This document shows, in pieces, positions 5,346 through 58,726 of a stretch of 64,000 nucleotides of DNA. Where the stretch lies: assembly GCA_003415625.1 (NCBI GenBank), contig PYIU01000002.1, forward strand, positions 1,674,001-1,738,000, written 5' to 3'. Each line of letters opens with the position of its first letter. Within the stretch, counting starts at the first letter, position 1. The notes under the pieces were generated by a model. That model saw only the letters and a list, made by a program, of their open reading frames with translations. It was not told the DNA's origin and did not search any database. This stretch comes from Aquanectria penicillioides (lineage: Eukaryota; Ascomycota; Sordariomycetes; Hypocreales; Nectriaceae). A program made the translations under genes and the position numbers.

Positions 5346-7613
5346 TCAACTTGACGGGCGAGCGAAGACAAACTCGCGGCATGCCTATTTTGGTAAGAGT
5401 CAGTGATAAGTCGCCCCTCTTGCCGCATAGATGGAAACCTACTGCTCGCAAAACATAAAGTTTCTCTTGTGTCTGCATGAAGACATGGTGATACTGGGCA
5501 ATGCTCTCTCGAAGCACAGCTTCCTTGGTTGTACGCCCTTCGCAGATTGCTTTCATCTTCAATTCCATCTCTTTGCGCAGAAATGGTTTGCCGAGGCTTG
5601 TCTCGAAATTCATGCGATCGAAGCCTAGGATCAGGGCGACTCCTAGCTGCGTAGGTACGAATACCTTTACGCCCCTCCGATTACCGGCAGATGAGGCTCC
5701 TCCCCGGCCTCTCCCGCCTCTCCCGCCTCTCCCGCCTCGTCCGCCTCGTCCTCGGCCTCCTCTTGCGGGCGGGGTATCGTCCGGCTCCTCGTCGTCTGCT
5801 GGTGCTTGTCCTGATCGCTCGATTGTTGCAACATATTCCCTGTCTTGGATCTTTTGGATGTGCTCGGCCATGGTTGCGTCAGTGCCAATTCCATTAGCAT
5901 CCATTAAAGCGATGAGATCGGCCTCAGTGAGATAACCAGGAGGCGATGTCTTTCCTTCTGTCATCATGGCCTCTGTCGGCGTGAGCCGTTCCCCCACTGT
6001 AAATTTCGGCAGCTCGGCCGTATTGTTCCAGCTCTCGTAAACAAAAACATCGAGATAATTTCTCTCCAATACGATGACTCCATGAGCGCTAAAAGTCTCG
6101 TCCCCATAATCAATGTCGATGTCGGTCGCCATACCTTTAGCATCGTCGGAGCAGCAGGCCAAGAAACGACGAACGACATATTCGTAGAGCCGACCTTCGT
6201 CGAAGTTCAAGACACTTGGTGCAGCATACGTGATTGGGTGGATCGGTGGATGAGCCTTGTCATCATGCCGGCCTTCCCTTGGTTGTTGGAAGGCACCATC
6301 CGCGAGACCTTGTGCAAATTGTCCCCATCTCTGATCTGGGGTTTGTTTCTGGACGAGGGCTCTCAAATTCATACCTTTGTCAAACCGATCAGTTTCAGTT
6401 CTCGGATAACTAATAAATCCCTTGTTGTAGAGCTCTTCGGCGATCTTCATCGCTTGCTGACCACTCATACGCAGAAGGCGCGTTGCCGCCTTTTGGAGCT
6501 CAACCGTCGTAAGGGGCAGAGGTTTGAACTTTCGGGTCGGTTTCTCCTGAACCCTAGATACTGTGGCAGTCTTAGATGAGAGACATCTCTCATATAAAAT
6601 CACTGTTGACATCCGGTCAAAAAGGCGATTACGCTGCCAATTGAAGTTGACTTTCTTGCCGTCTTGACTATGCATCACTTTAATGCTCCAGAATGATTCT
6701 GGCACAAAGTTTTTCACACGAAAATATCGATCCACGACGAAGCCAAGGGTTGGGAATTGGCATGATCCTATCTTGTCAGCATTGTCTTGAAACTTGGGGG
6801 GAGTGTTTACCATAACTAAGAGTTAAGTTTTCCATTGGCCCGCCCAATGGCCTCAGACTATTCGTCATATATCGTGTGAAGGCATAGCCAATGCGAAGAT
6901 CTAGCTCGATCCTAGTAGCAACTGCATCGACTTGTTTTTGATCCAAATCGGCCAACCTCCGCGCTGCTGATAAGACGTGACTAAGATTTACTTGTTAGCC
7001 GTAGTTTGAAGGGCAACAGTTGATAGTGCACATACGCTCGTTCGACGTTGCTAAATCTAGCCCGCTTGATTTGAATGCCAGCATTCCCCGCTTGGGCCGC
7101 TTTGACAATTTCATGACCAATGTGTTCTCCCTCGCGATCGCAATCTGTCCAGATTACCAGGAGTTGAGCATAGCGAGCCTGGGACTCGAGATTCTTGGCG
7201 ATTGATTTCTTGTCCTAATAAAGATCTGTTTAGCGCTGTATTTCTGAGGGCTCGTGGATGCTTACATCATGGATGCTCGTAACCACTGGGGCTCTAAAAA
7301 GTGCCTCTGGCGGAGGGTGACTCCAATTCTTATATTCCGGTGTAAATTCAACATTGGTCAAGTGGCCAGTAACACAAGTCATGGTGACGGAGCATTTTCC
7401 CCACGGTGCGCCAAAATCAAATTCGAATGAGTAATTCTTGATGTATTGGTTCCGTGTGTTGTGCTAGGTTGGTTAGTTAGCATTCCAGTCGGTCAATGGG
7501 CGTGGTGAGCAGCCGATATTGCTTCAACTCACTCTTTGAAGAGAGCCACCAGACAGATGGCCAGCTACAGCCTTTGAAATGGATGGCTTCTCGGCCACAC
7601 ACAGGACTCGCAT
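5346..7613 (-). CDS. TOP3: DNA topoisomerase III (type IA)
   Basis: Six exons (7613-7533, 7463-7266, 7214-7036, 6980-6811, 6767-5443, 5384-5346) give 663 residues, close to yeast Top3 (656). The TOPRIM domain starts MRVLCVAEKPSISKAVAGHL and carries the metal-binding DCDRE at 117-121. The catalytic tyrosine is Y330 in GFISYPRTETDRF. GIGTDATMAEHIQ and FVPTQLGVALI mark the conserved core. The protein cleaves one DNA strand through a 5' phosphotyrosine and acts with RecQ helicase and Rmi1 to dissolve recombination intermediates. There are no C-terminal zinc fingers, as in yeast Top3. An arginine-glycine repeat (about 545-566) interrupts the core. The fourth intron (6768-6810, 43 nt) joins LSYG to SCQFPTLG. 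The last 58-nt intron removes a non-conserved tail and ends the protein in ACREFVFARPSS. Confidence 0.95.
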
Positions 7614-55507: not shown

Positions 55508-58091
55508 ATGATGGCGTCGGCCGAGGTCGACATCCCCCGTCGCGACCGCGATCGCGGCACCCAGCGCGACGGTGACTCCTATCGCCCCGCGAGGGCACCG
55601 CACTCCCGCTCGCGATCGCCTCCTCCTGCCGCCCCCGTCCGCACCGAGGAGGAGAAGCAGGCCGCTGCGAAGGCCGAGTACGAGAAGCTGTTGACTATGC
55701 GATCCGGTGGCACTTACATCCCGCCCGCCCGACTGCGTGCCCTCCAGGCCCAGATCACCGACAAGACCAGCAAGGAGTACCAGCGCATGGCCTGGGAGGC
55801 CCTCAAGAAGAGTATCAATGGTCTGATCAACAAGGTCAACACCGCAAACATCAAGCACATCGTCCCGGAGCTGTTTGGCGAGAACCTCGTCCGCGGCCGT
55901 GGCCTGTTCTGCCGCTCCATCATGAAGGCCCAAGCAGCCAGTTTGCCATTCACCCCCATCTACGCTGCCATGGCCGCCATCGTCAACACCAAACTGCCCC
56001 AGGTTGGAGAGCTGTTGATCAAGCGATTGGTCATGCAATTCCGCAAGGGCTTCAAGCGAAACGACAAGGCCGTGTGCCTCTCCTCGACGACCTTCCTTGC
56101 CCACCTCATCAACCAGCAGGTGCAGTACGAGATGCTGGCCGGCCAGATCCTGCTCCTGCTTCTGCACAAGCCGACCGATGATAGTGTCGAAATTGCCGTT
56201 GGATTCTGCCGCGAGGTTGGTCAGTATTTGGAGGATATGCAGCCATCCATCTCCATGGCTGTCTTCGACCAGTTCCGAAACATCCTCCACGAGGCCGACA
56301 TCGATAAGAGAACGCAGTACATGATTGAGGTTCTGTTCCAGGTGCGCAAGGACAAGTTCAAGGACAACCCAGCCGTCAAGGAGGAGCTGGATCTCGTGGA
56401 GGAGGAGGACCAGATCACCCACAAGGTCGAGCTCGACGGCGAAATCGATGTGCAGGACGGCTTGAACATTTTCAAGTTCGATGCCAACTGGGAAGACAAC
56501 GAGGAGGCCTATAAGAAGCTCAAGGCCGAGATTCTAGGCGAGGGCAGCGACTACGATGACGACGACGACGATGAATACGAGAGCTCCGACGAGGAGGAGG
56601 AAGACCAGGAAACCAAGGCCATGGAGATCAAAGACCAGTCCAATGCCGACTTGGTCAACCTACGAAGGACTATTTACCTCACCATCATGTCCAGCGCCGA
56701 CCCCGAGGAAGCTGTGCACAAGTTGATGAAGATTAACCTCCCAGCCGGCCAGGAACCCGAGCTGCCCTCGATGATTGTCGAGTGTTGCTCACAGGAGAAG
56801 ACATACACCAAGTTCTTTGGGTTGATCGGCGAGCGATTCTCCAAGATCAACCGCCTGTGGTGCGACCTCTTTGAGCAGGCTTTTGCCAAGTACTACGAGA
56901 CCATCCACCGTTACGAGAACAATAAGCTGCGCAACATTGCCATGCTGTTCGGTCACATGTTCGCGTCCGACGCTCTCGGCTGGCACTGCCTCTCCGTGAT
57001 CCATCTCAACGAAGACGAGACCACATCGAGCAGCCGTATCTTCATCAAGATTTTGTTCCAGAACATTGCTGAGGAGCTTGGCATGCCCAAGCTGAGGACC
57101 CGAATGACGGATGAGACACTCCGACCGAACCTCGAGGGCCTATTCCCAAAGGACAACCCCCGCAACATCCGATTCTCCATCAATTACTTCACCAGTATTG
57201 GCATGGGTGCCCTTACCGAGGAGATGCGAGAGTATCTTCAAAACATGCCCAAGCCTGCACTTCCCGCTCCCCCGGCTGCCGATTCCGACTCCGATTCGGT
57301 CTCGAGCTACTCGTCTTACACAGGGTCATCGTACTCATCGCGGTCACGATCAAGGTCTCCCCGACGGGCTGGTGACCGTGGCCGATCCCTCTCCCGAACT
57401 CCGTCCCGAAGGGGCGAGCACGATCTTATAGCTCGTCACGTTCGAGGTCATACTCCAGATCCGTCTCAGCGCGTGGACGTGAACGAAGCCAGGGATCATA
57501 CTCGGCTAGCCCTCGACGGGACCGTCAACGCAGCGTTGGGAGCCGTTCAAGGTCTCCAGCGCCTCGGGCGGACGCGGACGGGCGCGCAGCGGCTCGTATT
57601 CTTCTCGGAGTCGATCGCGCACCCCTCCACCTCGGCGGGGCCGCGCTCGAAGTGCCTCTTATGATTCCCAGAGCCGATCGCCCTCGCCAGCTCCCAAGGA
57701 CAGGCGAGCACGATCACGAAGCGGCTCTTATGATTCCCGGAGTCGATCTCCTGCTGCGAGGGGACGCGCCAAGTCTCCGGCTGGACCTGCTCAGCGCGGA
57801 CGACCCGCTGGACGCCCTGGCCCAGGTTCATACCGCCGCAACAGCTCTTCGGTCAGCAACGGAGCTCGGGGCAAGCCCAAACAATACAGTCGATCGCCCT
57901 CCTATGATTCGCGATCTCCGCCACCAGCCCGAAACGGCGGACGGAGAGACTCATATTCGAGGTCGAGAACCCCTTCCAATCATGGAGATGGGAAGAGGTC
58001 TCCCAGCCCGGTGCCGGGGAAGAGAAGACGGTACAGCGACAGCGTGTCGCGGTCACCCCCACCAGTGAAGCGTGGTCGCCGTGGAAGCTGA
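55508..58091 (+). CDS. CWC22: Pre-mRNA splicing factor Cwc22 (RS tail frameshifted)
   Basis: A single-exon gene starting MMASAEVDIPRRDRDRG. An N-terminal RS-like segment precedes the MIF4G domain (about 70-265: GGTYIPPARLRALQAQITD, NIKHIVPELFGENLVRGRGL). An acidic linker (about 350-370, DDDDDDEYESSDEEEE) leads to the MA3 domain (about 390-500). Cwc22 is an essential spliceosome component that places eIF4AIII for the exon junction complex. The C-terminal RS domain appears in three frames. The first is good to SRTPSRRG, the second runs 57415-57567 (RSYSSSRSRSYSRS), and the third runs 57567-58091 and ends KRGRRGS, stop. Each switch fits one missing G, at GGGG (57411-57414) and GGG (57566-57568). 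As assembled, the first frame would end at 57664 with a non-RS tail. Confidence 0.9.
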
Positions 58092-58522: not shown

Positions 58523-58529
58523 AGCAATT

Positions 58530-58540
58530 TGGCGCAGTGG
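58530..58540 (+). promoter_or_regulatory. Pol III A box
   Basis: TGGCGCAGTGG within the D arm matches the A-box consensus TRGCNNAGYGG. Confidence 0.85.
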
Positions 58541-58547
58541 AAGCGCG

Positions 58548-58600
58548 GTAAGTTTCTCTGGCTCAGCTTCGAATTGAATATTCACGCTAACTTGTCCCAG
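58548..58600 (+). other. Intron 1 of tRNA-iMet, spliceosomal type
   Basis: 53 nt, beginning GTAAGTTT and ending TTGTCCCAG, with CTAAC (58587-58591) 10 nt before the 3' end. Size, donor, branch site and acceptor match the protein-gene introns of this window. Confidence 0.85.
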
Positions 58601-58620
58601 CCGGGCTCATAACCCGGAGG

Positions 58621-58676
58621 GTAAGCCTCACCTTCGACTCCAGCCTAGGGAGCGTCGGCTAACAAGCAAAAATCAG
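58621..58676 (+). other. Intron 2 of tRNA-iMet, spliceosomal type
   Basis: 56 nt, beginning GTAAGCCT and ending AAAAATCAG, with CTAAC (58659-58663) near the 3' end. It lies in the variable loop. It is not similar to intron 1 beyond the splice signals. Confidence 0.85.
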
Positions 58677-58681
58677 TCGCA

Positions 58682-58692
58682 CGATCGAAACG
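58682..58692 (+). promoter_or_regulatory. Pol III B box
   Basis: CGATCGAAACG in the T arm is the initiator-type B box. The two introns move it about 140 bp away from the A box, against roughly 30-40 bp in an intronless tRNA gene. Confidence 0.75.
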
Positions 58693-58713
58693 TGCAATTG
58701 CTACCAATCCTTC

Positions 58714-58726
58714 TTTTTTTTTTTTT
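58714..58726 (+). terminator. Pol III T13 terminator
   Basis: An uninterrupted run of 13 T starting 10 nt after the tRNA 3' end, a strong polymerase III termination signal. Confidence 0.85.

Follow-up and report, generated by a model that had tools for sequence, protein, structure and literature searches.

Split initiator tRNA genes with apparently spliceosomal introns in the mould Aquanectria penicillioides

Introduction

The splicing of tRNA and the splicing of mRNA in eukaryotes are taught as separate pathways. The nearest precedent for the genes described here is the U6 small nuclear RNA (snRNA) gene of Schizosaccharomyces, which is transcribed by RNA polymerase III (Pol III) and carries an mRNA-type intron; the title of Frendewey et al. 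1990 is said to report a B-box match within that intron. Here we analyse a stretch of 64,000 nucleotides from Aquanectria penicillioides (assembly GCA_003415625.1, contig PYIU01000002.1; C6:1674001-1738000, hereafter the window), in which an initiator tRNA-Met gene is interrupted by two short introns of spliceosomal appearance. We consider, with a probability of about 0.88, that this gene and five others like it are working cytosolic initiator genes, made by Pol III, from which the spliceosome would remove both introns.

The comparison with U6 has its limits. U6 is an snRNA, whereas the product here is a tRNA, with two introns that leave a middle exon of 20 nt in all six copies found. Unlike those of Schizosaccharomyces, the U6 genes found in this genome (at least two, with 47 of 2978 candidates scored) are uninterrupted matches to the model, in a search that could miss interrupted copies. 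Fungal U3 small nucleolar RNA (snoRNA), likewise small and structured, has ordinary GT-AG introns, two of them in a few species, and according to an excerpt of the same source no small structured RNAs besides U3 and U6 are known to carry introns frequently (PMC5832005). U3 differs in that no tRNA is involved and in that intron-bearing and intronless copies coexist in some species; the U3 genes found here (at least two, 24 of 869 candidates scored) are also uninterrupted matches, with the same limit on interrupted copies.

Among tRNA genes themselves, interruption is familiar from the canonical eukaryotic introns that the tRNA splicing endonuclease (Sen) removes at position 37/38. The introns described here lie at other sites, are two per gene, and bear splice and branch signals. 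Introns at non-canonical positions, several to a gene, are found in Cyanidioschyzon and in nucleomorphs, those of Guillardia often without a defined bulge-helix-bulge (BHB) motif; the GT-AG and branch-site signature seen here in 11-12 of 12 introns is not reported for them in the excerpted text (PMC3978253).

Gene structure and splice signals

Exons of 25, 20 and 27 nt at window positions 58523-58703 join into a 72-nt tRNA-Met(cat) in which ARAGORN pairs every stem. A sequence-only reading of the window had claimed exactly this: a perfect initiator tRNA in three segments, insertions of 53 and 56 nt at 26/27 and 46/47, a first exon of 25 nt and a T13 terminator. All of these coordinates proved exact, and scoring the joined 72 nt, which the same reading had proposed, returned the expected tRNA. 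By inspection, the 72-nt cloverleaf has a CAU anticodon, A1:U72, three G-C pairs at 29-31/39-41 (the GGG/CCC anticodon stem), A54 and A60, and we take this A1:U72 pair, these G-C pairs, A54 and A60 to be the marks of a eukaryotic initiator. For initiators, an excerpt of PMC3978253 gives A54U55C56. In its minimum-free-energy fold the joined 72-nt sequence does not form the textbook anticodon arm, although ARAGORN draws it.

The cloverleaf is split exactly between its arms, with the D arm in exon 1, the anticodon arm in exon 2 and the T arm in exon 3. The 25-nt exon 1 ends at tRNA position 26 because position 17 is absent. Since each intron and each upstream exon end in G, the cut is ambiguous by one base at each junction, both registers yielding the same 72-mer, and we infer the exact boundary from the GT-AG rule alone.

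The signals that speak for the spliceosome recur throughout the 12 introns of the six genes, which are 52-60 nt long. All 12 have a GTANG donor and a YAG acceptor (10 CAG, 2 TAG), and 11 have a branch site [CT]T[AG]A[CT] with 10-16 nt between its A and the intron end, exactly 10 nt in intron 1 of every gene. The full motif is thus present in 11/12 introns, compared with 0.55% of shuffles in which GT and AG were held fixed and the interior was shuffled. A GT donor, a YAG acceptor and a branch site 6-36 nt from the acceptor are the features of U2-type introns. Published values for fungi give RCTRAY as the branch site, at 6-36 nt from the acceptor, and YAG, preferably CAG, as the acceptor itself (excerpt of PMC5832005); the tRNA introns agree with them and therefore look like normal fungal introns. 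A hairpin at the 5' splice site (exon GAGG with intron CCUC) was considered and set aside: it could form in 6/6 genes, at a pairing probability of at most 0.06.

Six interrupted genes and the search for an intact copy

The assembly comprises 53.76 Mb in 13 contigs and is the only one used, and the 12 introns, being paralogous, are non-independent samples. It holds six split initiator genes on three contigs (g1-g6, the window gene being g2), each with identical exons and with both introns at the same sites. Three patterns were searched for: the anticodon arm (45 matches at up to 1 mismatch, 6 exact), the D arm (25 at up to 2 mismatches, 6 exact) and exon 3 (6 at up to 3 mismatches, all exact; control 0). 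Their exact matches coincide at the same six places. ARAGORN resolved the near misses of the first two patterns into two tRNA-Arg genes and miscalls of the split genes, in a scan that left out 15 of the 39 one-mismatch anticodon-arm matches, which had no assigned locus. Three of the six genes lie within 1.6 kb (C6:3124845-3126477), two in tandem and one on the opposite strand.

An intact initiator gene elsewhere, the strongest objection foreseen by the sequence-only reading, was sought across the assembly with three join patterns, 3 mismatches allowed, and was not found. The joins of exon 1 to exon 2 and of exon 1 to the anticodon gave 0 matches each, and that of exon 2 to exon 3 gave two, each at 3 mismatches and neither recognised as a tRNA by ARAGORN. 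A BLAST-type search of the genome for the joined sequence also found nothing; it misses the six split genes too and is not counted as evidence. In viral contigs and prokaryote genomes the split-gene patterns had no match, which in such non-fungal collections says nothing of how widely the trait is spread. One viral contig holds an intact tRNA-Met(cat) with a different T loop and was discarded as irrelevant.

Chance is excluded as the origin of the arrangement, because five further loci repeat the same layout of three exons and two introns, with exons that are identical and introns that differ. Across the 72 exon nucleotides the six genes are 100% identical; mean pairwise identity is 62.6% for intron 1 and 66.7% for intron 2 (about 50% in shuffles), and 51-52% for the 80-nt flanks (48-50% shuffled). 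Constant exons beside diverged inserts and flanks point to a product under selection, from which the inserts are discarded. Dispersed copies that keep one product while their inserts drift are unlike pseudogenes.

The other tRNA genes of the genome served as controls. A tRNA model listed at least 62 genes (63 of 2343 candidates scored), and 46 of the 62, in 40 regions, were checked. None of the 46 had an intron of the initiator type, and 18 had ordinary anticodon-arm introns, all called at gene positions 34-40. Two of these 18 are tRNA-Met(cat) genes with a 31-nt intron of the canonical kind and a TTCGA T loop, i.e., elongators; a third match of equal score, at C9:3751186, was left out of this count. 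A pattern that combines a general A box with a donor after position 26, and so tests that position only, matched nothing beyond the six initiator genes.

Internal promoter

The A-box consensus is TRGYNNANNNG, and the A box TGGCGCAGTGG is present in exon 1 of 6/6 genes. A T run of 6-13 begins +4 to +28 nt after the end of each gene; from the T13 run at this locus the sequence-only reading had judged Pol III transcription likely. Pol III would transcribe each gene from this A box and most likely a B box in intron 2, and transcription would stop at the T run. The spliceosome, rather than Sen, would then remove the two short GT-AG introns between the tRNA arms.

B boxes were scored with a matrix built from 46 tRNAs of the same genome (13 distinct boxes, scores 11.0-16.5). 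A yeast-type initiator B box scores 7.9 on it. The exonic box in T-arm register, CGATCGAAACG, is a poor match, and the best match in intron 2, CCTTCGACTCC in the window gene, lies at intron position 11-13 in 6/6 genes, with scores of 10.5, 5.9, 13.6, 4.3, 11.9 and 5.9 for g1 to g6. Their mean of 8.71 compares with 0.96 (sd 1.21) in dinucleotide shuffles, 0/500 of which reach it, and the four introns of the TOP3 gene in the window score at most 3.6. From the start of the A box, the intronic box is 101-105 nt away and the exonic one 149-157 nt; the range is 42-77 nt in the 46 other tRNAs and 32-93 bp for natural spacing in S. cerevisiae (excerpt of PMC12409998). A B-box-like element in an intron, together with a poor box of the gene's own, recalls the U6 gene of fission yeast, and we propose that intron 2 most likely supplies the B box.

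Two side observations concern these elements. In intron 1 of g4 and g6 there is a B-box-like TTCGAT (scores 9.1 and 7.5), the six-gene mean for that intron being reached by 16/500 shuffles. In g1, g5 and g6 a short hairpin (e.g., ATACCCTTCTAGGGTAT) can be seen by eye in the 3' trailer, ahead of the T run.

Alternative explanations

One alternative, which we consider quite possible though not probable, accepts spliceosomal splicing and holds that the B-box-like element of intron 2 is merely inherited, the exonic B box or upstream elements being sufficient. The six introns are paralogous, and the block may be shared by mere ancestry: column identity is 0.77 in the block and as high, 0.81, from the donor to the block. 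Three of the six scores (4.3, 5.9 and 5.9, the window gene included) are modest. The matrix also favours elongator-type boxes, as its training boxes were chosen by a TTC[GA]A filter that itself penalises any initiator T loop. Against simple inheritance, intron 2 has diverged in its middle (0.42) and intron 1 in its interior (0.41), and the exonic box scores -0.6, compared with 11.0-16.5 for the 46 other tRNAs. Among the 127,980 11-mers of the window, 337 score at least 4.3, 158 at least 5.9 and only 11 at least 10.5, a level reached in three of the six introns 2. The three low scorers would thus be unremarkable alone; it is their fixed place that counts.

It is improbable, in our judgement, that the introns are spliceosomal and the transcripts are made by Pol II, with the tRNA ends trimmed from a longer RNA. 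Splicing is usually coupled to Pol II, which favours this explanation, whereas the A box, the directly downstream T run and the intronic B-box-like element each occur in 6/6 genes.

We think it very unlikely that Sen cuts these introns out at ectopic sites in the manner of red algae and nucleomorphs. Cyanidioschyzon has ectopic and multiple tRNA introns, ordinary anticodon-arm introns exist in this same genome, and 3 of the 4 BHB pairs are reached in 11 of 24 junction tests (12 introns in two registers, G-U allowed), which leaves relaxed motifs possible. The complete four-pair central helix was found in 0/24 tests, the sites are 26/27 and 46/47 rather than 37/38, all 18 other called introns lie at gene positions 34-40, and an endonuclease would not need the donor, acceptor and branch-site signals described above. 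Position, splice signals and the missing four-pair helix thus disfavour Sen-type cleavage. That the six loci are dead or silent copies and an intact gene outside a possibly incomplete assembly supplies the tRNA is similarly remote, given identical exons on three contigs beside diverged introns and flanks, T runs and splice signals kept in 6/6 loci, and three patterns that find no intact gene.

Several further observations weigh against spliceosomal removal of the introns from a Pol III precursor. Intron 2 of g1 has no branch site near its acceptor, with CTGAC at 35 nt from the end and weaker candidates nearer. The sequence-only reading held that the insertions are exactly like the mRNA introns of this genome; "exactly" was too strong. 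The only mRNA introns compared, four in TOP3 (43-69 nt, with CTAAC-, CTAAA- or CTGAC-type branch sites), were predicted by a spliced alignment admitting only GT-AG, all end in TAG, and only 2/4 begin with GTANG; four are too few for such a claim, and the tRNA introns appear to resemble normal fungal introns in general. The adjacent CWC22 gene offered no usable introns, only frame breaks. Absence of TTTT from 12/12 introns, tried as proof of Pol III transcription, fell short of significance (P = 0.185 by dinucleotide shuffling). The fold of the window precursor is not better than that of shuffled sequences (z -0.79), and in the predicted ensemble of g1-g3 the D arm is rarely formed (0.01-0.03).

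Folding of the precursor

In the unforced precursor the acceptor and T arm are usually predicted, with a value of 0.21 for the anticodon arm of the window gene; forcing all four tRNA arms costs 0-4.1 kcal/mol. RNAalifold predicts base pairing between the end of intron 1 and the intron 2 donor, atop the anticodon stem. In the window this joins 58591-58597 to 58619-58625, and over the equivalent places of all six genes 38 of 42 cells pair. The pairing was matched by 0/5000 independent shuffles of the tails and by 18/720 column permutations that keep relatedness; other intron tails form 3-4 of 7 pairs (intron 2) or 1-5 of 7 (TOP3). Intron 1 may thus mask the donor of intron 2, which would order or gate the two splicing steps. 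This model remains a lead, because the six genes show no compensatory change in the pairing and g3 keeps only 4/7 pairs.

Annotation and neighbouring genes

A default tRNA scan of the window found no tRNA. When the unspliced genes were given to ARAGORN with introns of up to 150 nt, g2 was called tRNA-Glu(ttc) and g5 tRNA-Asp(atc), with introns of 99 and 110 nt, and the other four were missed. The trait could therefore be hidden in other fungal genomes, under wrong names. The features are collected in Table 1.

Table 1. Split initiator genes of the assembly and elements of the window gene (window coordinates unless a contig is named)
Feature	Position	Strand	Basis or remark
Split gene g1	C1:2725132-2725315	-	three exact exon matches
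Split gene g2 (window gene)	C6:1732523-1732703	+	three exact exon matches
Split gene g3	C6:3124845-3125022	+	three exact exon matches
Split gene g4	C6:3125444-3125621	+	three exact exon matches
Split gene g5	C6:3126292-3126477	-	three exact exon matches
Split gene g6	C7:5798537-5798715	+	three exact exon matches
Exon 1 (tRNA 1-26; 5' acceptor strand and complete D arm; 25 nt)	58523..58547	+	identical across 6 genes
A box TGGCGCAGTGG, Pol III internal promoter, in exon 1	58530..58540	+	sequence
Intron 1 (53 nt; GTAAGT, CTAAC 58587-58591, CAG 58598-58600; site 26/27)	58548..58600	+	sequence
Exon 2 (tRNA 27-46; complete anticodon arm, CAT; 20 nt)	58601..58620	+	
Intron 2 (56 nt; GTAAGC, CTAAC 58659-58663, CAG 58674-58676; site 46/47)	58621..58676	+	
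B-box-like element CCTTCGACTCC inside intron 2	58631..58641	+	matrix score 5.9 (4.3-13.6 over six genes)
Exon 3 (tRNA 47-73; complete T arm and 3' acceptor strand, discriminator A; 27 nt)	58677..58703	+	
Exonic B box in T-arm register CGATCGAAACG	58682..58692	+	poor match, score -0.6
T13 run, putative Pol III terminator	58714-58726	+	

Two protein genes of the window have been mentioned. TOP3 (DNA topoisomerase III), with four predicted introns, lies at 5440-7613 (-). CWC22, a spliceosome factor with MIF4G and MA3 domains, lies at 55508-58088 (+) and ends about 435 bp upstream of the tRNA gene, which is probably a coincidence. Within its RS-rich tail the reading frame shifts twice (frames 2, 1 and 3 relative to homologs), perhaps through assembly indels. 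Among the best 120 matches of each, the nearest proteins come from Mariannaea, Dactylonectria, Neonectria, Thelonectria, Ilyonectria and Fusarium; for CWC22 the identity reaches 94%, with 81% of the query aligned. Mariannaea and Neonectria belong to the Nectriaceae, and a fungus of that family is the most likely source of the genome.

Significance

We know of no earlier tRNA intron of the spliceosomal kind, and these would be the first. In titles and abstract openings of open-licence PMC papers no spliceosomal intron in a tRNA gene was recognisable, and the tRNA papers PMC4090602 and PMC2888827 do not mention the spliceosome. The principle is already known from U6; as far as is known, what is new is its occurrence as a kind of tRNA intron.

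If the interpretation holds, the tRNA that starts cytosolic protein synthesis passes through the mRNA pathway, and in this mould the mRNA-splicing machinery is probably needed for translation to start. We give even odds to a stronger version, in which all cytosolic initiator tRNA would be spliceosome-dependent, so gating cytosolic initiation, and intron 2 would be locked in place as the carrier of a B box that the mature tRNA has lost, because intron loss via an RNA copy would delete the promoter. The genes would offer a natural test of how the spliceosome copes with Pol III transcripts that are very short and structured and include a 20-nt exon, and another of why an intron that holds a promoter persists. 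They would also tie translation initiation directly to splicing capacity.
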